Assembly: GCA_010365215.1 (NCBI GenBank)
Contig: JAAFGT010000040.1
Span: forward strand, 1 to 35,814
Source: Acidipila sp.
GTDB taxonomy: Bacteria; Acidobacteriota; Terriglobia; Acidiferrales; UBA7541
Direction: 5' to 3'
DNA length: 35,814 nucleotides
Position numbers and translations under genes: made by a program. Under the pieces are notes generated by a model. The model had not been told where the DNA came from. It saw only the letters and a list, made by a program, of their open reading frames with translations, and searched no databases. Positions 12,209 through 34,700 of the stretch are shown here, in pieces; position 1 is the stretch's first letter; the number at the start of each line of letters is the position of its first letter.

Positions 12209-15022
12209 ATGCACACGATGCATACACTCCGCATGCGGCTCAGTGCCATCGTTTTGGCGCTCGTTTCGGTAGCTGCGATCTGCTTCGGGTTCGTCAATTT
12301 CCAGCAACGCTCCAAGTTCATTACTCCTGATGATGGTGTCTCCTGGCAGGATGGTCCCACGGGCGTAACCGCCTGGCTGGTGGCTCCCAACTCTCCGGCG
12401 ATCAGCGCGGGGATACGGCCGGGCGACGTGCTGCGCACTCTGAACGGGACGCCGGTGAAGCGCTCGACCCAGGTAACCCGGCGGCTGTGGCAGATCGGCA
12501 CGTGGACGGAAGCGCGCTACAAACTATCGCGCAACGGGCGGGATTTCGAAGCCAGCCTGGTCACCGTCCCGGCGTACAAACCTTCCTCCATTGAGAATTA
12601 CCTTCGCGTAGTGGGACTGATCTATCTGTTCATCGGACTTTTTATTTTCCTGCGCCGCTGGACCGCCGCACGCGCCGTTCATTTCTATCTGTTCTGCCTG
12701 GCTTCGTTCGTCTTCTATACGTTTCACTATAGCGGCAAGCTGAATGCCTTTGATTGGACCATCTACTGGTCGAACGTGGTGGCACTGTTGCTGCAACCCG
12801 CGCTGCTGGTTCATTTTGCGCAGGTATTTCCGGAGCGCCGCCAGCGGCTGACCGGTTGGATCGCCGCGGTTTATGTTTTTCCGGCCGCGCTTTTGCTGCT
12901 GCACATCAGCGTGGCGACGCACGCTCTGGGTTTCGTGCCCTCGCTGGGCGCGCGTATTTTTCTCGACCGCGTTGAGCTGCTGTACCTGGGCGTGTACTTT
13001 TTTACCGCGGCATTTCTTTTCCTGCGCAGCTATCGCCGTTCGCCCAGCGGCGTGCTGCGGCAGCAATTGAAATGGGTCACCGGCGGCACCCTGGCGGGCA
13101 CGCTGCCCTTCTCGATGCTCTATATCCTTCCCTACTTTTTGGGAGTAGTGCCGCAATCGTGGATGAAGCTATCGGTGATTTCACTGGCGCTGCTGCCGCT
13201 GTGCTTTGGTTACGCGATTATTCGCTACCGCTTGATGGACGTGGACATCATCTTCAAGCGCGGACTGGCCTACACCGCCGCGACCATGGGGATCGTGGGA
13301 GTTTACTTCGGCATCGTCGCGCTGATCGGGGTGATGCTGCACTCCGCCGGTTCCATCGTGGCCGTCCTGGCGGTGGTAGCCACGGCGTTCCTGTTCCAGC
13401 CGTTGCGCGATCTGGTGCAGGGCCGGCTGGACCATTTCTTTTACCGCGACCGCCTGGATTACCGCCGTACGCTGATCGAATTCGGCCAGACGCTTACGAA
13501 AGAGGTGCGCCTGGAGCCCATGGTGGCCAGCGTGCTCGACCGCATCTCGCAGACCTTCCTGGTCGACCGTCTGGCGCTGTTCCTGGAAGAATCCGGCGCG
13601 CCCGGAAGCGTCCGCCTGGCGCGCTCCATGGGACTGAACCTGGAGGGTGCGCTGGACTTGAGCTTCATCCATGCCGCCGCCTTTCCGCAGACGGGCAACT
13701 ACCTGTTTTTTGAGTCCAGCCGCACGGCGAAGATGGAGAACGAGCAGGTGCGCGCCTCGCTTGAGCAACTGGACCTCAACTATTTTCTTCCTTGCCGCGT
13801 GCGCGACCGCGTAGTTGCGGTTCTCGGCGTAGGCAAGACCGTCGACGGCGATTTTCTTTCCAGCGAAGACGTCGAGCTGCTGCAAAGCATCGCCGGTTAC
13901 GTGGCCATCGCCGTCGAGAATTCGCAGCTCTACGAGTCGCTGCAGGAAAAGGCCGCGCAGGTGGAGCGCCTCAAGGACTTCAGCGAGAACATTGTGGGCT
14001 CGCTCAACGTGGGGGTAATGGCGGTCGACCATGAAGGCCGCATCGAATCCTGGAATCCTCCGCTCGAGCGCATGGTGGGCGTAGTACGTGAACACGCCCT
14101 GGGCCGCATGCTGGGTAAGGTGCTCTCGCCTGAGCTGATGAAGGAGATCGACGCGCGCGCCGCGGGCGACCAGCCCTTCATACTTTATAAATTCCCGCTG
14201 GAAGCCAGCGGCGGCCAGACCTTGATCGTCAACGTATCGGTGACCCCGCTGGTGGATAAGGGCGGCGCGCGCCTGGGCCGCCTGCTGCTGCTGGACGACG
14301 TGACGCAGCGCGAGCAGCTGGAAGAGCAGCTGGTGCAGACCGAAAAGCTTACCTCTCTGGGCCTGCTGGCCGCGGGCGTAGCCCACGAAGTGAACACGCC
14401 GCTAGCGGTGATCTCCAACTACATCCAGATGCTGGCCAAGCAGCTTCCCGGCGACGACTCGCGCCAGCAGATCATCGAAAAAATCGTGAAGCAGACTTTT
14501 CGCGCCAGCGAAATTGTCAACAACCTGCTGAATTTTTCGCGCACCGGTTCGGCGGAGTTCACCGAAGTCAGCCTGAACGGGGTGATCGAGGAGACGCTGA
14601 CGCTGGTGGTGCATCCTTTCCGCCTGGCGCGCGTCAGCGTGGTAAAAAATCTCGGTGAAGGCCTGCCCGCGGTGATGGGCTCGGGCAACCGTTTACAACA
14701 GGTATTCCTCAACCTCTTTATGAACGCTCGCGACGCCATGCCGAATGGCGGCATGCTCGAGGTTCGCACCACCGCGCACAACGGCTCCGTAGATGTCGAG
14801 ATCACCGACACCGGGCAGGGCATACCGCGCGAGCTGCTCAATCGCATCTTCGATCCGTTTTTCACCACTAAGTCCACGGGCAAAGGCACCGGGCTGGGAC
14901 TTTCCGTCAGTTATGGCATCGTGAAGGAACACAGCGGCACGATCGAAGTGCGCAGCACTCCCGGCAAAGGCACTTCCTTCCGGCTGGAATTTCCAGTGAG
15001 CACGAAAGCCGTGCACGTCTAA
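12209..15022 (+). CDS. Membrane histidine kinase with PDZ, multi-TM, GAF and PAS domains
   Basis: A 937-residue sensor kinase. TM1 (11-28) is followed by a periplasmic PDZ domain (about 43-118; SPAISAGIRPGDVLRTLNGTPV). Then come about nine hydrophobic segments (132-148, 156-172, 187-205, 217-235, 256-272, 292-311, 318-337, 353-376, 380-396), a GAF domain (about 430-572) and a PAS domain (about 592-700). The kinase core follows: phospho-acceptor His726 in GVAHEVNTPLAV, N-box NLFMNARDAMPNGG, G1 DTGQGIP, F-box DPFFTTK and G2 GTGLGLSVSYG. All catalytic elements are present. The GHKL subclass is that of NtrB-like kinases, matching the NtrC-type gene directly downstream. No strong ribosome-binding site is visible; the ATGs at 12209, 12218 and 12233 are alternatives. 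A periplasmic PDZ domain suggests sensing of peptide ends or envelope damage (inference). Confidence 0.93.
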   Translation: MHTMHTLRMRLSAIVLALVSVAAICFGFVNFQQRSKFITPDDGVSWQDGPTGVTAWLVAPNSPAISAGIRPGDVLRTLNGTPVKRSTQVTRRLWQIGTWTEARYKLSRNGRDFEASLVTVPAYKPSSIENYLRVVGLIYLFIGLFIFLRRWTAARAVHFYLFCLASFVFYTFHYSGKLNAFDWTIYWSNVVALLLQPALLVHFAQVFPERRQRLTGWIAAVYVFPAALLLLHISVATHALGFVPSLGARIFLDRVELLYLGVYFFTAAFLFLRSYRRSPSGVLRQQLKWVTGGTLAGTLPFSMLYILPYFLGVVPQSWMKLSVISLALLPLCFGYAIIRYRLMDVDIIFKRGLAYTAATMGIVGVYFGIVALIGVMLHSAGSIVAVLAVVATAFLFQPLRDLVQGRLDHFFYRDRLDYRRTLIEFGQTLTKEVRLEPMVASVLDRISQTFLVDRLALFLEESGAPGSVRLARSMGLNLEGALDLSFIHAAAFPQTGNYLFFESSRTAKMENEQVRASLEQLDLNYFLPCRVRDRVVAVLGVGKTVDGDFLSSEDVELLQSIAGYVAIAVENSQLYESLQEKAAQVERLKDFSENIVGSLNVGVMAVDHEGRIESWNPPLERMVGVVREHALGRMLGKVLSPELMKEIDARAAGDQPFILYKFPLEASGGQTLIVNVSVTPLVDKGGARLGRLLLLDDVTQREQLEEQLVQTEKLTSLGLLAAGVAHEVNTPLAVISNYIQMLAKQLPGDDSRQQIIEKIVKQTFRASEIVNNLLNFSRTGSAEFTEVSLNGVIEETLTLVVHPFRLARVSVVKNLGEGLPAVMGSGNRLQQVFLNLFMNARDAMPNGGMLEVRTTAHNGSVDVEITDTGQGIPRELLNRIFDPFFTTKSTGKGTGLGLSVSYGIVKEHSGTIEVRSTPGKGTSFRLEFPVSTKAVHV

Positions 15023-15065
15023 AGCTCAATGTCAAAAGCGCACGTCTAAAGCTCATGTCAAAAGC
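15013..15065 (+). repeat. Tandem duplication across the kinase stop / regulator start
   Basis: A 27-bp unit (15013-15039) and a 26-bp unit (15040-15065) are identical except for one extra A in the first copy (CTCAATG versus CTCATG). Each copy contains a TAA and the ATG with the first codons of the regulator. The first copy's ATG (15029) opens the frame M-S-K-A-H-V and stops at the second copy's TAA (15047-15049). Confidence 0.95.
15029..15049 (+). CDS. Six-codon minigene (MSKAHV) upstream of the response regulator
   Basis: ATG TCA AAA GCG CAC GTC TAA, created by the tandem duplication. It starts 6 bp after the kinase stop and ends 5 bp before the true regulator start. Its first five codons encode the same residues as the regulator's own start (MSKAH). 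Whether ribosomes use it is unknown; it could serve in re-initiation or dampen regulator translation, or be a neutral duplication scar. Confidence 0.4.
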   Translation: MSKAHV

Positions 15066-16557
15066 GCATATCTTGGTGGTGGACGACGAAATTGAAATCC
15101 GCGAGGGCCTGCAGCTCCTGCTCAGCTCCGAGGGCTATGACGTGGACCTGGCGGGCACGGCCGAAACCGGCTTGGCGGCGTTCGAGCGTCATCCCTTCGA
15201 CCTGATCCTGGTGGACGTCAGCCTGCCGGACCGCAACGGCCTCGAAGTCCTGCGCGAAATCCGCCAGCAGGATGCGGCGATTCCTGTGATTCTCATCACC
15301 GCCTACGGTTCGATCGACATGGCCCGCGCGGCCTTCAAAAATGGGGCGCTCGATTACATCACTAAGCCCTGGTCCAACGACGAGCTGCTCGCGCAGGTGG
15401 CCCAGGCGGTGGAAGGCCGGCGGCTGCGCGAAGAAAACGTACAGCTCAAGCGCGCGTTCAAAGAGCGCTACAATTTTCCCAACATTGTGGGGCGCAGCGA
15501 AACCATGCTGGCGCTGCTGGATCTGGTGACGCAGGTGGCGCCGTCGCGTTCCACCGTGCTGATTACCGGGGAGAGCGGCACCGGCAAAGAGCTGATTGCC
15601 AAGGCCATTCACGCCGCTTCCACCCGCGCGGATAAACCGTTTGTGCCGGTGAACTCCGGATCCATCCCCGTAGATCTGCTGGAATCGCAGCTCTTCGGAC
15701 ACGTCAAGGGAGCTTTCACCAGCGCGGTGGCCTCGAAAAAGGGCCTGTTCGAAGTGGCCGACCAGGGCACGATTTTTCTCGACGAGATCAGCACCATCGG
15801 TCTGGAGACCCAGGCCAAGCTGCTGCGCGTAATTCAGGAACGCGAATTTATGCGTCTGGGCGGCACCGAAACCATCAAAGTGGACGTTCGCATCCTGGCC
15901 GCCTGCAACACGGAATTGACGCAGCTGGTGCGCGACGGGCGCTTCCGCGAAGATCTCTACCATCGCCTCAACGTCATCAATATTCTTCTTCCGCCGCTGC
16001 GCGACCGCAAGGAAGACATTCCCGCGCTGGTGGAGCTGTTCCTCAAGCGTTATTCGGAAGAGAATGGCAAGCCGCTGCGGCGCTTTTCCGCCGGTGCGCT
16101 GCGGCTGCTGATGGATTATTCCTGGCCGGGCAATGTGCGCGAGCTCGAGAATGTGGTCAACCGCGGCGTGGTGCTTTCCCCGCAGGAGCAGATGGACGTG
16201 GACCTGCTTCCGGAAAGCGTGCGCACGCGCGAGATTGTGAAAGGTGTCCGGCTGCAGCTTTCGGAATTTATGGCGCCCTCGGAAGGTGGGGAGGGAGCGC
16301 GCCCGGGCGGAGCACCACCTCCGTCCCTGTTTGCCATCATGGAAGAAGTGGAGCGGCGCATCATCCTGGACATGCTCGAGCGCACAAATTGGAATCAGAC
16401 CGAAGCCGCCGAGCGTTTCCAGATTCCTCTATCGACGCTCAACCAGAAGATCAAGCGGTTGGGCATCGAGATCCGCCGCCGCGGCGGCGCTGCCCGCCAT
16501 GCCGGCGTGCCCACGCCTCCTGATGAAGATCCTGCGAAAGTTCCCGCGCCGCGCTAA
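15055..16557 (+). CDS. NtrC-family sigma-54-dependent response regulator
   Basis: A 500-residue regulator in three parts. The receiver domain (1-120) has the acidic pair Asp10-Asp11, phosphorylation site Asp54, Thr82 and Lys104. The AAA+ domain (about 142-375) has Walker A GESGTGKE (172-179), Walker B TIFLDE (239-244), the arginine region FREDLYHRLNV and WPGNVRELENV. The C-terminal Fis-type helix-turn-helix is at about 427-476 (RTNWNQTEAAERFQIPLSTLNQKIKRL). The sigma-54 contact loop reads GAFTSA (219-224) instead of GAFTGA. A flexible Gly/Pro linker (408-423) precedes the DNA-binding domain. It starts 32 bp after the kinase gene; the start at 15055 has only a weak AAAG as ribosome-binding site, so translation may be coupled. 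Partner of the kinase at 12209. Confidence 0.95.
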   Translation: MSKAHILVVDDEIEIREGLQLLLSSEGYDVDLAGTAETGLAAFERHPFDLILVDVSLPDRNGLEVLREIRQQDAAIPVILITAYGSIDMARAAFKNGALDYITKPWSNDELLAQVAQAVEGRRLREENVQLKRAFKERYNFPNIVGRSETMLALLDLVTQVAPSRSTVLITGESGTGKELIAKAIHAASTRADKPFVPVNSGSIPVDLLESQLFGHVKGAFTSAVASKKGLFEVADQGTIFLDEISTIGLETQAKLLRVIQEREFMRLGGTETIKVDVRILAACNTELTQLVRDGRFREDLYHRLNVINILLPPLRDRKEDIPALVELFLKRYSEENGKPLRRFSAGALRLLMDYSWPGNVRELENVVNRGVVLSPQEQMDVDLLPESVRTREIVKGVRLQLSEFMAPSEGGEGARPGGAPPPSLFAIMEEVERRIILDMLERTNWNQTEAAERFQIPLSTLNQKIKRLGIEIRRRGGAARHAGVPTPPDEDPAKVPAPR

Positions 16558-22545: not shown

Positions 22546-25500
22546 GTGGAAAATCCTGCGCTTCCTCGCGTACATCTCCCGAGCATCCTTCTTTGTTTTT
22601 TTCTTTCCGGCGCCGCGGGACTGATCTATCAAGTGGCCTGGGGAAAGGCGCTGGGCATGGTTTTCGGCCACACCGTTTACGCCATCTCCACGGTGCTGGC
22701 GGTTTTTATGGGCGGCCTGGCGCTGGGCAGCGCGTGGTGGGGCGCCCGGTCGGAGCGTTTCGTAAATCCGGTAAGACTTTACGGATGGATAGAGCTGGCC
22801 ATTGCCGCCGCAGGTCTGCTTTCTTTGCCGGGCTTGGCCTGCGTGCGTTGGCTGTACCTGTACAGCTATCACACTGCCGCTGGGTCCGTGCCCGCGCTGC
22901 TGCTTTTGCGTTTTCTGGGCGCGGCGCTGGTGCTGCTGCTGCCCACATTCCTCATGGGCGGAACGCTTCCGGTACTCGTACAGGGAGTGACGCGCAGCTC
23001 CGCCGAGCTGGGCGTGCGCGTCAGCCGACTTTACTGGGTCAATACTCTTGGCGCCGTGGCCGGTACGCTTGCCGCGGGATTTGTGCTCCTTCCCTCGCTC
23101 GGCCAGCGCCAAACCGTGGGCGTAGCCGTGGTGCTCAATCTTTTTGCGGGCGCGGTTGCGCTAGCGTTGAGTCGCAGGTCTTCCCCCAGTCGCTTCCCGG
23201 CGGATGAGGAACTCTCTCCGCAACGCGCCGATGCGATTCGCCCCTCTCCCCCCAGGCATTCTAATTTTCTGCTGGTCAGCTTCGGTGTAGTGGGAGCGAC
23301 CGCAATTTCATACGAAATTGGCTGGACGCGCCTGCTGGCCACTTATCTGGGCAGCTCGACTTACGCTTTCACGGTGATGCTGGCGGCATTTCTTTCCGGC
23401 ATCGTGATTGGCAGCGTGCTCTTCGAGCGGTGGATTTCGAGCGGCCGCGAAATCTCCGCCAGCGGCTACGCCTGGACACAGATGCTCACAGCACTCTCCG
23501 CGCTGGGGTTCCTGGCTTCCTATCAGCATTTTCCCACGCTGTTCGGGGCGCTGCTTCGCCACAGCAACAACACCTTCGGCGGGCTGGTATTCGCGCAATG
23601 CATCCTCAGCGTGCTGGCCATGCTGCCTACAGCAATTGTTTTTGGATTTAATTTTCCGCTGGTCACAGTGCTGATCGCCGGGCGCAGCGGCAACCCATCG
23701 GCCGGTTCGACGCGAGCTTCGACGGGCGCGGCAGTGGGCCGCGCCTATAGCGCCAACACCCTTGGCGCCATCCTCGGCGCGACGTCAGTGGGATTTTTTC
23801 TTATGCCGCGCACAGGCGCTTTCCGCCTGCTGGCCATCACGGCCGCAACAAATCTCGCGCTGGCTCTGGCGCTGGTGCTGCGCCCCAGCGAGGCGCGCCG
23901 CCACTGGCTGTTTGCCGGTTGCGGCGTCACATTACTCGCCGCCGTCGTGGCGGTAACGTTTTCCGGTGCGCTTTACAATCCGGCAGTGGCTACGTTTGCC
24001 GCGGTGATGTACTACGACATTTATGGCGGCAAGCTCAGCGCCGCCGAGCAGGCCGCCACCACCGACATAATTTTTGCCGAGGACGGCCTCAACGCCACCA
24101 TCTCCGTGGCGCGCGCCGAGGAGTACATCGCCGAGCGCACCAACGGTAAAGTGGACGCCTCCAACAAAGACGCGCTCACGCAGTACATGGCCGGGCACCT
24201 GGGAATGATTTTTCATCCCGCTCCGCGCCGCGTGCTGGTGATCGGGTTCGGCAGCGGCATGACTGTGGCCTCGGTGGCCCACTATCCCGAAGTGGAGCGC
24301 ATCGACTGCGTGGAAATCGAGCCCGCCGTGCTGCATGCCGCGCCTTATCTGGAGCGGCTCAATCACGGCGTACTCCGGGACGCGCGCGTACACATAATTT
24401 TTGACGATGCCCGCAACTTTCTGCTTACCTCGCGCGAGCAGTACGATCTGATTATCTCCGAGCCTTCGAACCCATGGATCGCCGGCGTCGCGGCCCTTTT
24501 CACCGACGAGTTTTATTCCGAAGCGCGCGCGCGCCTGCGCCCCGGCGGCATGCTGGTGCAATGGGTGCAGGGCTACGCGCTCTTTCCCGAAGATTTCCGC
24601 ATGGTGTTGAGCACCTTCGTGCCGCATTTCCCTCGGGTCACGCTGTGGCGGGGCGAAGACCCGGATTTTCTGCTGCTGGCGCAGACCGACTTGCAGCCCT
24701 TGCGCCTGGAGCGGCTACGCCGGCTGTGGACGAACGAAAATCTTCAGAAAGACTACGAGGCGTTAAATATCGAAGAGCCGGAAGGCCTCATCGCCTACCA
24801 CCGGCTGGATGACGTGGATCTTCGTGGCGTGCTCGATCCCGCCCTGCGCAACTCCGACGACAACTCGCGCCTGGAATTTCGCGCCCCGCGCGCCCTGCTT
24901 ACCCGCGGCCTGGAAGAGAAAAATATCGAGATGATCTGGAGCCGGCGCACCGCTTCCCTGCCGCGCGACATAATCATCGACGACCCGCGTGCCACGCTTC
25001 TCGCAGCGGCGGAAACCGCTCTGCTCAATGAAGACAACGACCGCGCGGAATATTTTCTGCGGGCTCTGGGACTAACCGACCACTCCTTCGCAGTGGAGCT
25101 GCTCCGCGCGCGCCTGCAATTCGCGCGCGAGAATTACGCTATGGCCCGCGAACATTTCTCCGCAGCCTTGCAGCTCGATCGCTCGTCCCTTCGCGCCGCC
25201 GCCGGCCTCGGCGATGTAGCGCGCCATCTGCAGGAGTTGGATACGGCCGAGCTGATTTATCGCCAGGTTCTGGGGCGCGATGCAAAATACGTGCGCGCGC
25301 TCAGCGGGATGGTCGAGGTCATGCGCGCGCGCGAACATTGGGGAGAAGCCGCCAAATGGCAGGCTGCGCTGCTCGAGGCTAGCGCCACTCCGAATGCCGC
25401 GGATACCGCTACGCTGGGCGAGATTTTGCTGCGTGCCGGCGCACCGGATCTCGCCGAACAGACTCTGCTCTCGGCGCTCGAGCTGGAGCCCTACTCGTAT

Positions 25501-25731
25501 TCCGCGCATCGGCAACTCGGGAATCTGTATATCGCGCGGAAAGATTGGGAAAAGGCCCGCACCCATCTTGAATTTTGCATTCGCTACGAGCCGGACGGCG
25601 ATGCGCTGGCCTTTCTCGCGCTCGCCGACGTATATCACCAGCTTGGCCGCCCTTCTCTCGCCGCGGCGAGCCTGCGCAAAGGCTTACGCCTATTCCCCGA
25701 CAACGCCGCGCTGCAAGGCGCGCGGCCCTAA
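22546..25731 (+). CDS. Membrane spermidine-synthase-like methyltransferase-fold protein fused to TPRs
   Basis: A 1061-residue three-part protein. Residues 10-475 form a polytopic membrane region with two similar halves (FFLSGAAGLIYQVAWGKALG at 18-37 and ISYEIGWTRLLATYLGSSTY at 254-273), as in MFS-like spermidine synthases. Residues ~505-760 are a spermidine-synthase/SAM-binding Rossmann domain: VLVIGFGSGMTV (563-574), CVEIEPAVL, DDARNFL (620-626) and YDLIISEPSNPW (633-644). The catalytic-site Asp of true spermidine synthases is Glu here, so aminopropyl transfer is doubtful. The C-terminal ~250 residues are TPR-like helix pairs (AREHFSAALQLDRSSLRAAAG, AEQTLLSALELEPYSYSAH, ARTHLEFCIRYEPDGDAL). 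Start GTG at 22546; a start before residue 12 is needed to keep TM1. Confidence 0.9.
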   Translation: MENPALPRVHLPSILLCFFLSGAAGLIYQVAWGKALGMVFGHTVYAISTVLAVFMGGLALGSAWWGARSERFVNPVRLYGWIELAIAAAGLLSLPGLACVRWLYLYSYHTAAGSVPALLLLRFLGAALVLLLPTFLMGGTLPVLVQGVTRSSAELGVRVSRLYWVNTLGAVAGTLAAGFVLLPSLGQRQTVGVAVVLNLFAGAVALALSRRSSPSRFPADEELSPQRADAIRPSPPRHSNFLLVSFGVVGATAISYEIGWTRLLATYLGSSTYAFTVMLAAFLSGIVIGSVLFERWISSGREISASGYAWTQMLTALSALGFLASYQHFPTLFGALLRHSNNTFGGLVFAQCILSVLAMLPTAIVFGFNFPLVTVLIAGRSGNPSAGSTRASTGAAVGRAYSANTLGAILGATSVGFFLMPRTGAFRLLAITAATNLALALALVLRPSEARRHWLFAGCGVTLLAAVVAVTFSGALYNPAVATFAAVMYYDIYGGKLSAAEQAATTDIIFAEDGLNATISVARAEEYIAERTNGKVDASNKDALTQYMAGHLGMIFHPAPRRVLVIGFGSGMTVASVAHYPEVERIDCVEIEPAVLHAAPYLERLNHGVLRDARVHIIFDDARNFLLTSREQYDLIISEPSNPWIAGVAALFTDEFYSEARARLRPGGMLVQWVQGYALFPEDFRMVLSTFVPHFPRVTLWRGEDPDFLLLAQTDLQPLRLERLRRLWTNENLQKDYEALNIEEPEGLIAYHRLDDVDLRGVLDPALRNSDDNSRLEFRAPRALLTRGLEEKNIEMIWSRRTASLPRDIIIDDPRATLLAAAETALLNEDNDRAEYFLRALGLTDHSFAVELLRARLQFARENYAMAREHFSAALQLDRSSLRAAAGLGDVARHLQELDTAELIYRQVLGRDAKYVRALSGMVEVMRAREHWGEAAKWQAALLEASATPNAADTATLGEILLRAGAPDLAEQTLLSALELEPYSYSAHRQLGNLYIARKDWEKARTHLEFCIRYEPDGDALAFLALADVYHQLGRPSLAAASLRKGLRLFPDNAALQGARP

Positions 25732-27782: not shown

Positions 27783-28478
27783 ATGCCCTGGGATTTCGCC
27801 GTGCTGCTCCTGACTCTTGGCGTCGCTGTCCCGTGGCGCTCGACTGTACGCATGCGTCAGCTAATGCAGTCCCCGGCCACCACCAGCGAGCAGCGCCTGG
27901 CCATCTACGCCGGTACAATCGCATTCCAGTGGCTCGCCGCCGGAGTAGCCCTCTGGCGAGCGCTGGCACGAGGCATTTCGCCGCGAGCGCTAGGCTTGGC
28001 GCTCGATCATCCGCTTCGCACCCTGGCTATTGCCGCGGGATTGTGCGCCTTTTTGGCGGCGACCCAGCTCTACGGGCTTCGCCAACTCGCCGGGCTTCCT
28101 CCCAGCGAGCAGGGCTTTGCCGGAGTTCTCGCGCGCAAGTTGCTGCCCCGAAACTTCGTCGAGGTACTGGCGTTTATCGCGCTGGTAGCCACCGTCGCTG
28201 TGTGCGAGGAGTTCCTTTATCGCGGTTTTCTATTTGCGGTCATTGGGCGGGTATCTGGCTCTGTCGTCGCGGCAGCGCTCGTTTCTACTGCGTTTTTCTC
28301 GTTGGGACACCTGTACCAGGGAGTGAAAGGGCTCACCAGCACGTTCGTGCTGGGACTGGTTTTCTGCGCGCTGCGCATTTTCACCGGGAGCCTGGTACCC
28401 TGCGTGGCAGTGCACTTCTGCGTGGATTTAGTGGCGGGTCTGAGCGCGCCGCGGATGTTGGGGCTCGAGCATGAATAA
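27783..28478 (+). CDS. CPBP-family intramembrane metalloprotease
   Basis: A 231-residue polytopic membrane protein (about six TM segments) of the CAAX-protease/bacteriocin-processing family. Motif 1 EEFLYRGF (142-149; EExxxR with Arg147), motif 2 FFSLGH (171-176, His176) and motif 3 HFCVD (211-215) are all present, so the zinc-type active site is intact. The ATG at 27783 has no obvious ribosome-binding site; an in-frame ATG at 27747 is an alternative. Its last 8 bp (ATGAATAA) overlap the start of rsmG, which implies translational coupling. Confidence 0.9.
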   Translation: MPWDFAVLLLTLGVAVPWRSTVRMRQLMQSPATTSEQRLAIYAGTIAFQWLAAGVALWRALARGISPRALGLALDHPLRTLAIAAGLCAFLAATQLYGLRQLAGLPPSEQGFAGVLARKLLPRNFVEVLAFIALVATVAVCEEFLYRGFLFAVIGRVSGSVVAAALVSTAFFSLGHLYQGVKGLTSTFVLGLVFCALRIFTGSLVPCVAVHFCVDLVAGLSAPRMLGLEHE

Positions 28479-29178
28479 GCAGAAAGGCGTTTCCGGACGC
28501 GGGCGAGGGCCTGAATTCAAGGGGAAATCGATATTAGCTAATAGTAAATTGAATATTATAGAGAATAGCTTTTTGGAAGAGGCGCTGAGTCCTTTTGGGG
28601 TAGCCCTCAGTACCCCGCTCGCCGATGCGCTCCGCAGGTATCTTGAGCTTCTTTTGCGCTGGAATCAGAAGATTAACCTGACCGCGACCTCGGATCTGGG
28701 CGAATTGCTGCGCCGTCACATCGGCGAAAGCCTGTTTGGAGCGCGTTGTTTGCCGGAAGCGAGCGGAACTCTCTACGATATCGGCTCGGGAGCGGGCTTT
28801 CCGGGGCTATTTCTGAAGCTTCAGCGCCCGGATTGGGAACTGCTGTTGGTGGAGTGCGACCGGCGAAAGGCGGCATTTCTATCGGAAGCTTTGCGCGTAT
28901 TGAATTTTGATAGGTCGCGGGTTGTTGTTGAGAGGTTCGAGAGCATTTCCGGGGCAGAGAAAATCGCTGATGTCATCGTTGCGCGTGCGCTCGGTCGGCA
29001 CGCCGACCTTTTGAAATGGGCCACTGTGGCTCTCCGGCCGGGCGGAAAAGTCCTTTTATGGATTGGTAATAACGACGCCGAAAGGCTGCAGGAGACCGGT
29101 GGCTGGGATTGGGACGCCCCCGCGGCCGTGCCCGGTTCCGACGAGCGCGTGATCTTATCAGGCACTCTGCACATTTGA
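28471..29178 (+). CDS. rsmG: 16S rRNA (guanine-527-N7)-methyltransferase
   Basis: Methylates G527 of 16S rRNA using SAM. Family features: RYLELLLRWNQKINLTATSD, RHIGESLFGARCLP, the SAM-binding loop YDIGSGAGFPGLFLKL, LLVECDRRKAAFLSEAL, VIVARALGRHADLLKWA and GGKVLLW. The ATG at 28471 overlaps the CPBP gene by 8 bp. The first ~30 residues precede the family's usual start, and their DNA (28530-28565) is strikingly AT-rich; a TTG at 28549 could be the real start. In many bacteria rsmG lies next to parAB near the replication origin, as here. Confidence 0.95.
   Translation: MNKQKGVSGRGRGPEFKGKSILANSKLNIIENSFLEEALSPFGVALSTPLADALRRYLELLLRWNQKINLTATSDLGELLRRHIGESLFGARCLPEASGTLYDIGSGAGFPGLFLKLQRPDWELLLVECDRRKAAFLSEALRVLNFDRSRVVVERFESISGAEKIADVIVARALGRHADLLKWATVALRPGGKVLLWIGNNDAERLQETGGWDWDAPAAVPGSDERVILSGTLHI
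28534..28562 (+). promoter_or_regulatory. Candidate promoter in the AT-rich start of rsmG
   Basis: TTAGCT (28534-28539), 17-bp spacer, TATAGA (28557-28562), within an island of about 40 bp that is nearly free of G+C compared with its surroundings. If real it would serve rsmG (with a later start) or the downstream parAB genes. Confidence 0.3.
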
Positions 29179-29234
29179 GTGGTCTTAGGGTTGGCAGCGT
29201 AGGTAACCGAGGGAGGGCTGGTTCTCGTACGCCT

Positions 29235-29254
29235 GGTGTTTCACGTGAAACACC
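29235..29254. promoter_or_regulatory. parS: parS centromere site 1
   Basis: The perfect 20-bp palindrome GGTGTTTCACGTGAAACACC contains the universal chromosomal parS core TGTTTCACGTGAAACA (29237-29252) without mismatch. It is the loading site for ParB clamps. Confidence 0.97.
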
Positions 29255-29269
29255 GCATCTCGAACAGAT

Positions 29270-29285
29270 TGTTTCACGTGAAACA
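29270..29285. promoter_or_regulatory. parS: parS centromere site 2
   Basis: A second perfect TGTTTCACGTGAAACA, 33 bp (about three helical turns) from the first core and 71 bp upstream of the parA start. The pair sits between rsmG and parA, so ParB bound here could also affect parAB transcription. Confidence 0.97.
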
Positions 29286-29355
29286 GTTCAATCTGCGAAA
29301 TCACTTGTTTCGTCCGCTTCGCCTCTGTTAGATTGCCACCGGATTGGGGGATTTC

Positions 29356-30162
29356 TTGGGAAAGATCATTGCCGTCGCCAATCAAAAGGGTGGCGTCGGA
29401 AAAACTACTACTGCGGTCAATCTGGCCGCGTCGCTAGCCGCGGCCGAGCGGCGCACTCTATTGGTAGATTGTGACCCCCAAGGCAACGCCACCAGCGGAC
29501 TCGGGTTCAAAAAAGATCCTGCAAGACGCTCTCTCTATCAAGCGCTCATACTAGACGAGCCAGTCTCGAGAATCATCCTAAAGTCCCAAATGGAGGGCCT
29601 CGAGGTGATACCGGGAGATAAGAACCTGGTGGGCGCCTCAATCGAGCTGGTTGGTGTGGAAGGCAGGGAATTCCGGCTGCGGAAACTTCTGGAACCATTG
29701 CGAGCGCAGTATGACTACATCCTACTGGATTGCCCGCCAGCACTCGACTTGCTGACCTTGAACGCTCTGACCTCTGCCGATTCAGTGCTAATTCCGATTC
29801 AGTGCGAGTACTTCGCCCTGGAAGGCGTTTCAGAGCTTCTCGACACACTGATGCGCATTCGCAGGGAGCTAAATCCGCAACTCGCAATAGAAGGAATACT
29901 ACTGACCATGTACGATGAGAGGACCACGCTGTCGAAGCAGGTCAGCGCAGATCTACGAAGCTTCTTCGGAGCGCAGGTATTTCGCACCGCCATTCCCCGC
30001 AATGTGCGCCTCGCGGAAGCTCCAAGTCACGGTAAGCCTATTATTTTCTATGATATACATAGCAAAGGTGCGGAGAGCTATATTCAGCTGGCCACGGAGG
30101 TAATCGCCAATGACCAGACACGCGTTAGGGAAGGGACTCAGCGCGCTGATACGGGAGCCTGA
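29356..30162 (+). CDS. parA: Chromosome-partitioning ATPase ParA (Soj)
   Basis: A 268-residue ParA ATPase that binds DNA as an ATP dimer and moves ParB-parS complexes. I choose the TTG at 29356 because GGGGGA (29346-29351) lies 4 nt upstream and it gives the canonical opening GKIIAVANQKGG; a TTG at 29344 overlaps that site. Deviant Walker A KGGVGKTTT (11-19), switch Asp38/Asp40 in LLVDCDPQGN, and Walker B YILLDCPP. The protein is chromosomal type Ib-like, without an N-terminal HTH. The last ~17 residues extend past the family's usual end and are encoded in the overlap with parB (53 nt). Preceded by two parS sites. Confidence 0.96.
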   Translation: MGKIIAVANQKGGVGKTTTAVNLAASLAAAERRTLLVDCDPQGNATSGLGFKKDPARRSLYQALILDEPVSRIILKSQMEGLEVIPGDKNLVGASIELVGVEGREFRLRKLLEPLRAQYDYILLDCPPALDLLTLNALTSADSVLIPIQCEYFALEGVSELLDTLMRIRRELNPQLAIEGILLTMYDERTTLSKQVSADLRSFFGAQVFRTAIPRNVRLAEAPSHGKPIIFYDIHSKGAESYIQLATEVIANDQTRVREGTQRADTGA

Positions 30163-30988
30163 GCCGTCCGTCCAGACTGCTGTGGCTAATCCCGTTCCGG
30201 CCAAGAGTGGACCAATCGAAGTCGATATCGACCTCATCGATCCGAATCCATTCCAGCCACGCACGCATTTCGCTGCGCAAGCTTTGGAAGAGTTGGCCCA
30301 GTCGATTCGCTCAACTGGCGTGATTCAGCCGATTATTCTGCGGCCCACCGGCTCGCGGTATCAGCTTATCGCCGGGGAGCGTCGTTGGCGTGCGGCGCAG
30401 CGTGCCGGGCTGCACCGCATCGCTGCGGTGGTCCGGGACGTCCCAGAGCAGCTCGCGCTGGAGATGACCTTAGTCGAAAACCTGCAGCGCGAAGACCTGA
30501 ACCCCATCGAGCAGGCCCGGGCATTTGAAAAGCTGATGGCTGAGTTCAGCCTGACTCAGGAAGACGTAGCAGTAAAAACAGGTAAGGAGCGCAGCACCAT
30601 CGCCAACGCGCTGAGACTGCTGGCGCTGGACCCCCCGATCATCGAGTTGATCGAGGAAGGTCGGCTATCCGCCGGCCACGGCCGCGCACTGCTTTCGATT
30701 CCAGACATTCCGGCCAGGCTGGCGCTCGCGGCCAAAGTAGCCAGGAAAACGATGTCGGTCCGTGAGCTGGAGCGCATCGCCGCGCGAGGAAGGCGCCAAC
30801 GAAAGGGCACTGTCGCCGCCGCACCTTTTGACGCCAACACGCAGGCCGCGATCGACGAGCTACAGCGCGATCTGGGGACCCGGGTAATTCTGCAGTACAA
30901 AACGAAGAAGAGTCCCGGCAGGCTGATCCTGGAATTCTATGATGATGCACAACTTATCTCACTTTATGAGCGGCTCAGGTCGCATTAG
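30110..30988 (+). CDS. parB: Chromosome-partitioning protein ParB (Spo0J), CTPase
   Basis: A 292-residue ParB. The start MTRHALGKGLSALI is the family's conserved ParA-stimulating N-terminal motif (LGKGLSALI), so the ATG at 30110 is secure despite lying 53 nt inside parA. The CTP-binding domain includes NPFQPR (46-51), GERRWRAAQ (89-97) and ENLQREDLNPIEQA (123-136). The parS-reading HTH spans about 147-171 (SLTQEDVAVKTGKERSTIANALRL), and a C-terminal dimerisation domain ends the protein (ILEFYDDAQLISLYERL). ParB loads at the two upstream parS sites and slides as a CTP clamp. Confidence 0.97.
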   Translation: MTRHALGKGLSALIREPEPSVQTAVANPVPAKSGPIEVDIDLIDPNPFQPRTHFAAQALEELAQSIRSTGVIQPIILRPTGSRYQLIAGERRWRAAQRAGLHRIAAVVRDVPEQLALEMTLVENLQREDLNPIEQARAFEKLMAEFSLTQEDVAVKTGKERSTIANALRLLALDPPIIELIEEGRLSAGHGRALLSIPDIPARLALAAKVARKTMSVRELERIAARGRRQRKGTVAAAPFDANTQAAIDELQRDLGTRVILQYKTKKSPGRLILEFYDDAQLISLYERLRSH

Positions 30989-31021
30989 CGACGGGGATGG
31001 AAAACGGCGGCGGCTTTTATA

Positions 31022-31050
31022 TTGACTTAAATACCCCGCCCCGATATGAA
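31022..31050 (+). promoter_or_regulatory. Sigma-70 promoter of the bactofilin gene
   Basis: TTGACT (31022-31027), 17-bp spacer, TATGAA (31045-31050). Start of transcription near 31057 leaves a ~35-nt leader. It shows that the bactofilin can be expressed apart from parAB. Confidence 0.75.
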
Positions 31051-31091
31051 CCCTGTACCGAGACTTATCCGGCGGCACAAAGGGCATACTA

Positions 31092-31505
31092 ATGAAGCTA
31101 TTCGACCGCAAGAATGCAGAGGAATCTGGCGACTGGATCGGCTTTCTCGATAAAGGCGTCAAGCTGGATGGGCGCCTGGAGCTGAGCGGAGCGTTCCGCA
31201 TGGATGCCACGCTGAAGGGGACCATTGTCTCGAGTTCGACGCTGGTGCTGGGCGAAAATGCGCGCGTAGAAGGCGAGATCCAGGGAAACCAGGTGGTGGT
31301 GGCGGGCCGCTTTGACGGCACCCTGATCGCAAAAGGCCGCGTGGAGATACAAGCCAAAGGAGTGGTGCGCGGAGAGATCCATGCGCCATGCCTGATGATC
31401 GAAGCCGGGGGCATTTTCGATGGCCGCTGCCACATGACCGGCAACGCCGAAGGGGAGGAACCCCTGGCCATCCCCATCCGCGCCGCGGCGGCGACGCAAG
31501 CTTGA
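31092..31505 (+). CDS. Bactofilin (polymer-forming cytoskeletal protein)
   Basis: A 137-residue bactofilin, a nucleotide-free bacterial cytoskeletal protein that polymerises through a right-handed beta helix. The core (about 20-115) shows the expected short-strand pattern: FLDKGVKLDGRLELSGAFRM, LKGTIVSSSTLVLGENARVEG, EIQGNQVVVAGRFDGTLIA, GRVEIQAKGVVRGEIHAPCL and IEAGGIFDGRCHM. The short N-terminal tail (MKLFDRKNAEESGDW) has no membrane helix. It lies 104 bp after parB. In Myxococcus, bactofilins position the ParABS system at the poles; the neighbourhood here makes a similar role plausible, but this is inference. Confidence 0.93.
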   Translation: MKLFDRKNAEESGDWIGFLDKGVKLDGRLELSGAFRMDATLKGTIVSSSTLVLGENARVEGEIQGNQVVVAGRFDGTLIAKGRVEIQAKGVVRGEIHAPCLMIEAGGIFDGRCHMTGNAEGEEPLAIPIRAAAATQA

Positions 31506-31789
31506 ACTCAAATATTAATCCATTAGTTATTTAACTACTATCTAAACAGCTTCAGACCTCTACGCACTGCCCGAGCAACCTGTTGCGGACCCTGTCTACC
31601 GTTTCGTCTCTGAATTGTCCGCTCATAACAATTTGAATACGTCGTCGCACGCTAACCCCTGGTCAAATTCAGAGAAAAGTCTCGCACAGAGGCGTAGAAT
31701 CCGTGGACACTCAGGTGCTAAGTTATCGCTGCCCTGAGGACTATGGCAGCCGCGTAGTCCGCAGACGGAAAAGAACACGGGGGGATGAC
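31506..31789. other. Intergenic region between bactofilin and the TonB-dependent receptor
   Basis: 284 bp. The first ~50 bp are AT-rich. It contains the operator-like palindrome at 31613-31633. A frame is open from a GTG at 31703, but its first 29 residues are basic and carry no signal peptide, and the ribosome-binding site favours 31790. I see no clear -35/-10 pair. Confidence 0.5.
31613..31633. promoter_or_regulatory. Operator-like palindrome upstream of the receptor gene
   Basis: AATTGT and ACAATT arms separated by 9 bp form a 21-bp site with the same arms and spacing as the E. coli lac operator; the central bases differ. It lies 157 bp before the receptor start. It may be bound by a LacI- or TetR-type regulator, but no such regulator is encoded in the window. 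Confidence 0.35.
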
Positions 31790-34700
31790 GTGAAGATTTC
31801 AGTGAGCCGCTCGGAAAACCGAATGAGCAAAATCTCGCGAATGCGATGCGGAGGCATAGCTTCCGTTGCCGCCGTCGCGTTGATGCTGATACTGCTGGTC
31901 TCCTCCGCCGTGCAGGGGCAGGTCACCACCGCGACTTTGCTTGGTTCTGTGCAAGACCCATCGGGTGCGGCAATCCGTGGCGCCACGGTGACGGTGACGA
32001 ACGTGCAGACCGGGTTGGTGCGTACCGCGGTGTCGGGCGACAACGGAGAATACGCTGTCGACTTGCTGCCGGTCGGCGACTATGCCATTCGCGTGGAGTA
32101 CACCGGTTTCAAAACCGACGAGCGATCCCCGGTGACGCTGCAGATTGGAAGCCGTGCGCGCGTGGATTTCGCCCTACAGGTAGGAAAGATCAGCGAGAAA
32201 GTGGAAGTCACCGGAGCGCAGCCGATTCTGGACACGGACACGTCGGAATCGGGCCAGGTGATCGAACGAACCCGGGTGACGCAGCTTCCGCTCAACGGCC
32301 GGCAATTCATTCAGTTGACGCTGCTGACGCCGGGCGTAGTGCCCGAGGTGAAGGGCACGCTGAGCAGCCCGCTGTCGCTCTCCGGCGGATCGGTGAATGC
32401 GAACGGCGCGCGGTACGAGGACAACGTCTATCTGCTGGACGGCGTGTCCATTCGCGATGAGATCTATACGCGCTTGACGGTATCTCCTTCGGTGGATGCC
32501 ATCGAAGAGTTTAAAGTGCACACCAGCAATTACTCGGCGGAGTTCGGTGGCCACGGCGGGGCGCAGATAAACATTTCCACGCGCTCCGGCACGAACAGCC
32601 TGCACGGCGTGGTGTACGACTTCCTGCGCAACGACGCACTGGATGCTAGAAATTTCTTCGATCCCCAGCGTCCGCCCTTTCGCCAAAACCAGTTCGGCGC
32701 AAGCGTTGGCGGGCCCATCATAAAAAACAGAACGTTCTTTTTCGGAAATTATGAAGGCAGCCGCATATTCAAGGGCATCACGCTTACTTCGGCGCTGCCC
32801 ACGGATGCTCTGCGCTCGGGAGATTTTACGGGTATGGGGCCGATCATCGATCCGATGACGGGCTTGCCGTTCCCGAACGACATGATCCCCGCAGGGCGAA
32901 TCGTGCCATTCGCGCAGGCCTATTTGAACAAAATACCTCATGCCATGACCGCGGCGCTGGGCCGGAATTTTGCCGGCTTCGGGAACCGCAATTTCGACTT
33001 GAATCAATTTACCGCGCGCGTGGACCACTCGATTCGCGAGAGCGATCAGATTTTCGGCCGGTTCATTTTTTCGAACGTAAACGACACCGAGCCGTTTCCA
33101 GCTACCGTAGACCCTTCCGGAAATCCGCTCAGCCCGCCGGGGTTTGGGCAGACCACCTTTCAAAAAAGCCGGAATCTGGCGGCGGGCTATACGCATATAT
33201 TCAGCCCCAATTTGTTGAACGAATTTAGATTTGGATATAGTTTCCTCGACGTGGGTCAGCACTCGCAAAACTCCAACGTCGATTTCGTGACGCAATTCGG
33301 ATTTATGGGCACCAATCCGCCGCCGCTCGGCGCCGGATTCCCGAGCATCGTGATTCCGGGATTCAGCACGCTGGGCGATCCCACGACGCAGCTTTTTGTG
33401 GGAAATAATGTTTTTACTTTCAGCGATAACATGGTGAAGAATTTCACCCGCCACTCGTTGAAATTTGGGGGAAGCTACAAAAAAAGCTACGTGCGCACGG
33501 AATTCGTCTTCAACAGCGCAGGGCAGTTCAAGTTCCTGGGAGTTTTCACCCAAAACCCGTTCGCGGATTTCCTACTGGGCTTTCCGGCGGTTGCCACCGC
33601 GCTGACCGGCGACCCTCTGTTGCACGGTATCGGTTACGGTGTAGGCGCATACCTGCAGGACGACTGGCGAGTGACTTCGCGCCTCACCTTGAATTTGGGA
33701 GTGCGCTATGACATCAACTCGCCGTTCCGGGAACGCGACAACAAGTTTGCCAACTTCGCCCCGGAAATCGGCGGCTTCGTGATCGCCGGAAGCCCTGGCC
33801 ACATCAACCCTGCTGCCAACCCGGGAAGGTTTCCCGGCGTGCCGTTCCAGACGGCGAGGGAGCTGGGGTATCCGGATGCGTTGACGAATGGCGATTACAA
33901 TAATTTTGCCCCGCGTGTGGGCTTCGCCTATTCGCCATTTCCCACGGTGGCGGTCCGCGGCGGGTTCGGAATTTTTTTCGATACCGGACTATCGGGCGGG
34001 CGGTTCGGCATCCTGGGATTCAATCCGCCATTTACAGGACTGGGCGTGGCGCTTAACTTCAATCCGGCCACGCCGATCCCGGCACAGACGCTGCTGGTAA
34101 CGCCAAGCTTCAACGCCGTGCTGGGCCAGGGCCCGGCAAAGAATTTTCCCAACGGGTATCTGGAAGAATGGAATCTCAGCGTAGAGAAGCAATTGGGATC
34201 CAGTTTCGTCGTGGAGGCGGCGTACATCGGCTCGCGCGGAATTAAGCTCGATGGAACGCTGCTGCCCAACCAGCCCACCGCCAGTGCGGCGCCTCTCTCG
34301 GGACGGGTTCAGTTTCCCGTGCTGGGCGTGGACCTGGAAATCGCCTCGGCGGCGTTTGATTCCTGGTACCACGGCCTCATTCTGCGTGGCGAAAAACGTT
34401 ACTCGCACGGCTTGGTTTTTTCGGGGAACTATACGTTCTCGAAATCGCTGGACACGAACGGGGGTTCGTTATCGAATTTCTCCGACCAGAGCAACGGCGC
34501 GCCGCAGTTTTCCGGAAACATCGCCGCGGAAAAAGGGCGGTCGAGCTTCGATGCACGCCACCGTTTCGTATTCAACGCCGTTTACGATCTTCCGTTCGGG
34601 CGAGGGAAAGCGTATCTCAATAACTATTCGGGATTCGCCGACAAAGTGGTAAGCGGATGGCAGTTGAACACGATTATCGTGATGCAGTCCGGAAGGCCGG

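Follow-up and report, generated by a model that had tools for sequence, protein, structure and literature searches.

A bactofilin gene that directly follows parA and parB raises the question of whether its product takes part in chromosome segregation or is kept beside the segregation genes for some other purpose. Such an arrangement lies between positions 29,235 and 31,505 of a 35,814-nucleotide (nt) stretch of Acidipila sp. DNA (contig JAAFGT010000040.1, phylum Acidobacteriota), hereafter called the window, and a first-pass annotation had taken it to suggest a segregation module linked to its bactofilin, with the scaffolding of ParABS by bactofilins in Myxococcus as the model. Our comparison across related genomes favors a different answer: we consider it likely that this is a canonical ParABS locus whose bactofilin is a co-located scaffold for the envelope or cell shape, kept beside parAB and not itself a part of segregation.

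All genes of the locus are on the forward strand. The first is rsmG (gidB; 28471-29178), predicted to encode a 16S rRNA methyltransferase (GidB 132 bits; TIGR00138 above cut-off). It is followed by two perfect copies of the parS palindrome TGTTTCACGTGAAACA, located by motif scan and without strand, at 29237-29252 and 29270-29285, as had been annotated earlier. The second copy ends 70 nt before the likely TTG start of parA (29356-30162), which encodes a Soj-type Walker ATPase of 268 residues (AAA_31, 221 bits). Next comes parB (30110-30988), which has an ATG start and encodes a Spo0J-type protein of 292 residues (ParB_N, 118 bits; HTH_ParB, 119.5 bits), residues 32-239 of which align with the solved ParB 7bnk at an expect value (E) of 2.5e-61. 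Directly downstream of parB is the bactofilin gene (31092-31505; 137 residues; PF04519, 89 bits). The domains of a chromosomal ParABS system are therefore all found, with a Walker ATPase in ParA and ParB_N plus HTH_ParB in ParB, and so is a 16-bp palindrome that adjoins parAB and is kept in relatives. Given that rsmG, which the earlier annotation did not include, stands upstream, we read the locus as a canonical chromosomal rsmG-parS-parA-parB arrangement of the Soj/Spo0J type; a ParABS function is presumed from its relatives. In the window's family, for which 25 genomes including its own were collected and a usable ParB locus was obtained in 23, rsmG is upstream of parA in 22 of the 23 loci. 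The ParA frame is also open from a TTG at 29344, although the start is probably the TTG at 29356, on the basis that the aligned ParA consensus begins MGRxIAIANQKGG; by the same start rule, parA begins with TTG in 16 of the 23 family loci. Weak parA start codons (29344-29358 in the window) seem to be conserved in the family. The window's genome also has a second ParB-like match, 32% identical, at G000:C1:11547-12164, and many relatives likewise have a second match of about 32-40% identity.

The two parS sites are 33 bp apart, with a chance expectation of 0.06 within three mismatches, and no further site within two mismatches was found in the genome assembly (4.12 Mb in 91 contigs, 97.8% complete). 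With the spellings TGTTYCACGTGRAACA and at most one mismatch allowed, the gap between rsmG and parA holds two sites in 17 of the 23 family loci, one in four, three in one and four in one. In a whole-genome search of the window's genome and 40 relatives, the exact degenerate motif occurs in 33 of the 41 genomes, with one to three sites in 32 of them and six in G017; the reversed motif, used as a control, gave zero matches. In the family, all but two of the exact sites (both exceptions are in G017) are on the contig that carries parB, a short way before parA. Furthermore, in 15 of the 23 family loci the last site before parA stops 51-63 nt short of the parA start, against 70 nt for the window, which suggests a preferred position near the parA promoter. 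The common spelling in the relatives, TGTTCCACGTGGAACA, differs by one base from the Myxococcus consensus TGTTCCACGTGGAACG as given in the available part of PMC3899335. The distance between the window's two sites had been described as three helical turns. The pair is indeed 33 bp apart, but across the family the 22 distances between sites vary from 26 to 194 bp, with no sign of a 10.5-bp phase (R 0.16, Rayleigh p about 0.56); hence helical phasing of the pair is ruled out, and the match to three turns carries no weight.

Is the bactofilin a constant part of this neighborhood? Within the window's family, 22 of the 23 loci, the window's among them, have it immediately after parB; the remaining genome, G011, keeps parA, parB and parS, and no bactofilin was found in the 2.56 kb after its parB. 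We then drew 149 genomes evenly from the phylum and obtained ParB matches (E up to 1e-38) in 94 other genera; taking one genome for each genus, we searched with a profile for a bactofilin around the ParB locus. A same-strand bactofilin stands directly after parB in 58 of the 94 genera, representing 42 of 63 families (a first count of 55, to which three with a 4-nt overlap with parB were added); in the other 36 genera, none is next to parB in the at least 3.4 kb searched after each. Within the same order or class but outside the family, linkage was found in only 2 of 10 loci, and in none of the seven genera of family f11, which also belongs to the window's class; in family f3 the bactofilin orthologues are located away from parB. 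Where the genes are linked in the phylum draw, the median gap is 0, and at 19 of 56 junctions the two genes share 4 nt, as genes of coupled operons do; the gap is mostly wider in the window's family. Ten larger open reading frames beyond the bactofilin were examined at nine selected loci, where they are not in every case the adjacent gene. Their products are diverse (two AIR-synthase-like, two ATP synthase, an exchanger, a carboxyl transferase, a CTP synthase, YdjM and two that match no Pfam family), and on this sample conservation seems to stop after the bactofilin.

Outside the phylum, the Myxococcus ParB was used as the query, which biases the sample towards Myxococcus relatives; 56 named loci were found in genome contigs, and one fragment, L202, was excluded from the counts. 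The bactofilin directly follows parB in 19 of 19 Myxococcaceae/Archangiaceae loci, in 10 of 11 from Nitrospirota (the eleventh is cut by a contig end) and in both from Bdellovibrionota. It does so in neither of two other Myxococcota loci (one cut by a contig end), nor in any of eight from Bacillota, three from Ignavibacteriota, one from another deltaproteobacterium or nine others. One locus, L148 (BNCN01000018.1, titled Comamonas sp. KCTC 72670), is probably mislabelled: its parA-parB-bactofilin order is Myxococcus-like and its ParB is 96% identical to the query. The first-pass annotation had suggested comparing gene order across related genomes, and had said that a bactofilin not adjacent to parAB there would refute its proposal; since the order is conserved in relatives, adjacency is what we observe. 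Judged by gene order, parA-parB-bactofilin is thus an old and widely kept neighborhood of the window's phylum and of Myxococcota, Nitrospirota and Bdellovibrionota, and not local to the window. The annotation had also called the arrangement little described. This holds for Acidobacteriota, on which nothing to the point was found, and no report of a phylum-wide linkage was found in the open-licence papers searched; the order itself, however, is in print for Myxococcus and Bdellovibrio.

A conserved neighborhood does not say which kind of bactofilin is involved. A quick, unrooted tree was built from 93 bactofilin cores (105 columns; many forks unresolved). A branch of length 0.77, with a Shimodaira-Hasegawa-like approximate likelihood-ratio (SH-aLRT) support of 98, holds 26 of the 30 rows not linked to parB, among them BacN, BacO and BacP of M. 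xanthus and the window genome's own paralogues on contigs C77 and C20, and only 1 of the 51 linked rows from the phylum; three more linked phylum rows fork just outside it. The opposite side holds the other 47 linked phylum rows and all 11 linked rows from Myxococcota, Nitrospirota and Bdellovibrionota, BacM included, in addition to the three f3 orthologues beside the window clade and one unlinked row from G190. The window bactofilin is on this side, with BacM and apart from BacNOP; given that forks are unresolved and the root is unknown, the BacM side denotes a bipartition and not a proven clade. A grouping of the window clade with BacNOP is rejected in the quick tree by the approximately unbiased test (p-AU 6e-46), which, together with the SH-aLRT 98 branch, rules out a BacNOP-type bactofilin in the window. 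The names BacN, BacO and BacP were assigned here from the order and length of a three-gene cluster.

This position bears directly on the Myxococcus analogy. According to the available text of PMC5703909, ParABS is positioned in Myxococcus by BacN, BacO and BacP together with the adapter PadC, from a separate locus, and deletion of bacP or bacO did alter the localization of ParA and ParB, whereas deletion of bacM brought no significant change to either; the available part of PMC3899335 likewise describes BacM as dispensable for chromosome segregation in M. xanthus. The claim that the window's bactofilin serves ParABS as in Myxococcus is therefore not supported, given that the neighbor of parAB there is bacM and the scaffold is BacNOP/PadC. 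We also searched the family for PadC, with padC taken as the gene after the BacNOP cluster that has a long N-terminal region and a ParB-like end. No match was found in 15 of 17 family genomes in what is a weak test, since, of the two control genomes other than that of the query, G189 was found (4e-86) and G190 was missed; G007 and G017 gave weak matches to the ParB domain (3e-5).

The product of the window's gene has the features of a bactofilin (PF04519), namely the domain, a predicted beta-helix core at about residues 15-115 and disordered tails. Its model has a predicted local distance difference test (pLDDT) score of 97-99 over residues 21-110 and below 50 at residues 1-10 and 134-137, and its closest solved folds are the bactofilins 6ria, 2n3d and 6rib (E 8e-3 to 4e-2, none at or below 0.001; probability 1.00). 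No relatives were found among viral contigs. Work by Koch et al. in 2011, as cited in later Myxococcus papers, reportedly connects BacM with cell shape. In addition to the paralogues on C77 and C20, both of which are full bactofilins, the window's genome has a weaker domain match on C56. The C77 gene is about 9 kb from an M23 peptidase gene; a direct M23 peptidase partner for the window's bactofilin was considered and set aside, as none is adjacent and the genome's two M23 matches are on contigs C56 and C77.

The tail of this bactofilin carries the peptide LAIPIR at residues 125-130 (31464-31481, forward strand), in a region predicted with low confidence. The pattern [LVI][TAM]I[PS][IM][RK] is found in the tail of all 22 parB-linked bactofilins of the family, the window included, typically as (L/V)TIPIR, with its Ile located between 7 and 26 residues before the frame ends. 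Its codons vary synonymously, and the tail around it is variable and also predicted with low confidence. The peptide is absent from the other bactofilins compared, including 10 paralogues from family genomes and the three f3 orthologues located off parB. In G025, a member of the order, the bactofilin follows parB and has TIALR in the alignment, while the linked bactofilins of Nitrospirota have a different ending, KVVSL(T/A/S)(D/E)R, in 4 of the 4 compared. These peptides of the family and of Nitrospirota look like docking peptides, and as a feature shared across the family by alignment, the former is new here.

The bactofilin gene had further been credited with its own promoter, and this stands only in part. 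The putative boxes TTGACT-N17-TATGAA lie at 31022-31050 on the forward strand, and promoter-like boxes follow parB in 10 of 24 regions, taken from the family and one further member of the order; 300 base shuffles gave a mean of 1.6 such regions and a maximum of 5. Of the ten regions, one is from a genome without the bactofilin and another is a weak match. A standard consensus scan of 28900-31900, however, did not report the boxes; it gave one promoter-like site, on the opposite strand, and no terminator, with promoter and terminator counts not above those of shuffled sequence. A palindrome, CTACN4GTAG, was noticed just after the parB stop at L012, L014, L015, L016, L021, L024 and L141. It is exact in 6 of the 24 regions (shuffled mean 0.02), absent from the window, and resembles BlaI/MecI operators. 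As it also occurs 17 nt after parB in G033 (L141), where no bactofilin is linked, it was not used as a bactofilin-linked element.

The junction between parA and parB is of interest in its own right. The parA stop is at 30162 and the parB ATG at 30110, so that 53 nt (30110-30162) are read in two frames and 17 residues are added to ParA, as the first-pass annotation had noted. One frame gives the ParB N-terminal motif MTRHALGKGLSALI and the other the ParA tail NDQTRVREGTQRADTGA; a Shine-Dalgarno-like GGAGGT for parB (30096-30101, forward strand) lies within the ParA codons T-E-V, 8 nt before the ATG, and is at the same place in 20 of the 23 family loci. The overlap had been called unusually long. 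By the standard of the phylum it is long, as the median overlap there is 11 nt and at least 50 nt is reached in 7 of 90 loci. In the family, with overlaps of 32 to 137 nt, it is ordinary, and 53 nt is the length seen most often (7 of 23). Because all family loci fall in this range, the overlap is a family trait, and an oddity of the window's genome is ruled out.

Within the family, the third bases of the ParB codons at -3, -2, 0 and +2 relative to the LGxG motif are nearly fixed (in this order, A in 21, C in 23 and twice G in 22 of the 23 loci), whereas those of the interleaved codons -1, +1 and +3 are free. Third-base fixation in the overlap reaches 1.00 for Asn (at most 0.61 in 4 other conserved parB Asn columns), 0.96 for Leu (at most 0.83 in 20 Leu columns) and 0.91 for Arg (at most 0.87 in 22 Arg columns), and these third positions are variable in 33 non-family loci where parA stops short of the LGxG motif. 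The fixed bases are the first positions of ParA codons, which give the tail KRxGxG, with K in 20, R in 23 and each G in 22 of the 23 loci. Given that the ParB third bases are near-fixed at these K, R, G and G codons and free between them, a free run-on of ParA is ruled out for the family; this does not extend to the window, whose tail reads TRVREG and has partly lost the motif. The overlap thus looks constrained in both frames in the family, although a constraint on the DNA or RNA itself may be another source of the fixation. In the predicted ParA structure the last helix spans residues 237-258, and residues 258-268 have a pLDDT below 50. A literature search on parA/parB overlaps found nothing on point, and the double-frame constraint is new here.

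Taken together, the ParABS domains and parS sites, the synteny, the position on the BacM side of the tree, the dispensability of bacM and the existence of G011 without a bactofilin lead us to conclude that an ordinary ParABS locus accompanied by an envelope or shape scaffold is probably the right description. ParB would load at the two adjacent parS sites, the sole ones found in the genome, and ParA would move the origin. The bactofilin, one of an ancient group that accompanies parAB and to which BacM belongs, would form a beta-helical, envelope-associated polymer for cell shape or wall organization, its membrane association being expected from its relatives, and may be retained beside parAB for origin-proximal co-expression. 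Several points weigh against this conclusion. A linkage that several phyla have kept usually points to a shared task, and co-expression by itself explains it poorly. The C-terminal peptide found throughout the family suggests a docking partner, possibly ParA or ParB; three orthologues that are not placed after parB lack the peptide, as would be expected if it were tied to the linkage. The function of BacM is also transferred across phyla, and the window's bactofilin shares only a side of an unrooted tree with BacM, not a closed clade.

The same points feed the principal alternative, that the bactofilin is a true segregation component whose polymers fix ParA or the ParB-parS complex in place, as BacNOP/PadC do. 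The conserved adjacency in several phyla, the abutting of parB and the bactofilin gene in much of the phylum, and the peptide that is conserved when linked and missing from the three unlinked orthologues all argue for it; because PadC seems absent by the weak test above, binding would perhaps be direct, through the TIPIR peptide. Nevertheless, the bactofilin falls on BacM's side and not on that of BacNOP, the bacM deletion is without a ParAB phenotype in the available account (PMC5703909), PadC was not found in the family by that same weak test, and neither 36 of the 94 phylum genera nor G011 has a bactofilin adjacent to parB. We consider this alternative doubtful, and a role in segregation is not supported by the comparisons made here. 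A bolder idea, offered as speculation that we would not expect to hold, is that the bactofilins linked to parAB in four phyla (the window's own, Myxococcota, Nitrospirota and Bdellovibrionota) form one ancient functional class, recognizable by gene order and place in the tree, that ties the newly segregated origin region to the envelope; in the window's family it would do so by docking of (L/V)TIPIR to a Par or divisome partner, in place of the PadC of BacNOP. Finally, a passive neighborhood, in which an old rsmG-parA-parB order near the origin has a bactofilin unlinked in function or expression, can draw on the wide conservation of rsmG-parAB itself, on the 36 of 94 genera without linkage and on AIR-synthase-like and ATP-synthase genes that each recur in two genomes, as if a wider neighborhood were conserved, but it is very improbable in view of the 4-nt overlaps at 19 of 56 junctions, the co-transcription of parA, parB and bacM in M. 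xanthus (PMC3899335, available part) and a linkage that spans several phyla and yet is absent from all 8 Bacillota loci and all 3 from Ignavibacteriota.

Elsewhere in the window, 12209-16557 encodes first a sensor kinase that contains PDZ, GAF and PAS domains and then a sigma-54 response regulator, and 22546-25731 encodes a protein of 1,061 residues that combines a spermidine-synthase-like domain with TPR repeats.

The locus favored here, a canonical ParABS with a co-located bactofilin, is ordinary, and the value of the comparison is that it removes a tempting but wrong analogy, as BacM is not BacNOP; furthermore, the persistence of the linkage can now be tested through the bactofilin's C-terminal peptide and the doubly coded ParA tail. 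Set against known systems, the BacNOP-PadC scaffold of M. xanthus has the bactofilin family in common with the window, but is encoded at a separate locus and lies on the opposite side of the tree. Bactofilins of the BacA-LmdC type are paired with M23 peptidases and act as scaffolds in morphogenesis, according to the available part of PMC10945521, whereas the window's bactofilin has no adjacent M23 peptidase. The locus parA-parB-bacM-MXAN_7474 of M. xanthus shares its gene order with the window, has a similar ParB core and a bactofilin on the same side of the tree; its four genes are co-transcribed. It differs in that its 22 parS sites are clustered about 4 kb upstream of parA, as the available text of PMC3899335 describes, while the window has two sites beside parA and a parB-bactofilin gap wider than is usual for the phylum, with a possible promoter of its own; in the Myxococcus-type locus L149, moreover, the parA and parB matches do not overlap, against 53 nt in the window. 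In B. bacteriovorus, the bd3908-bd3904 region comprises a putative rRNA methyltransferase, two identical parS sites, parA, parB and a bactofilin homologue, in the available part of PMC10547168, and so shares the window's order apart from an extra gene, bd3907, before parA. The window is thus a further case of an arrangement already known from Myxococcus and Bdellovibrio.

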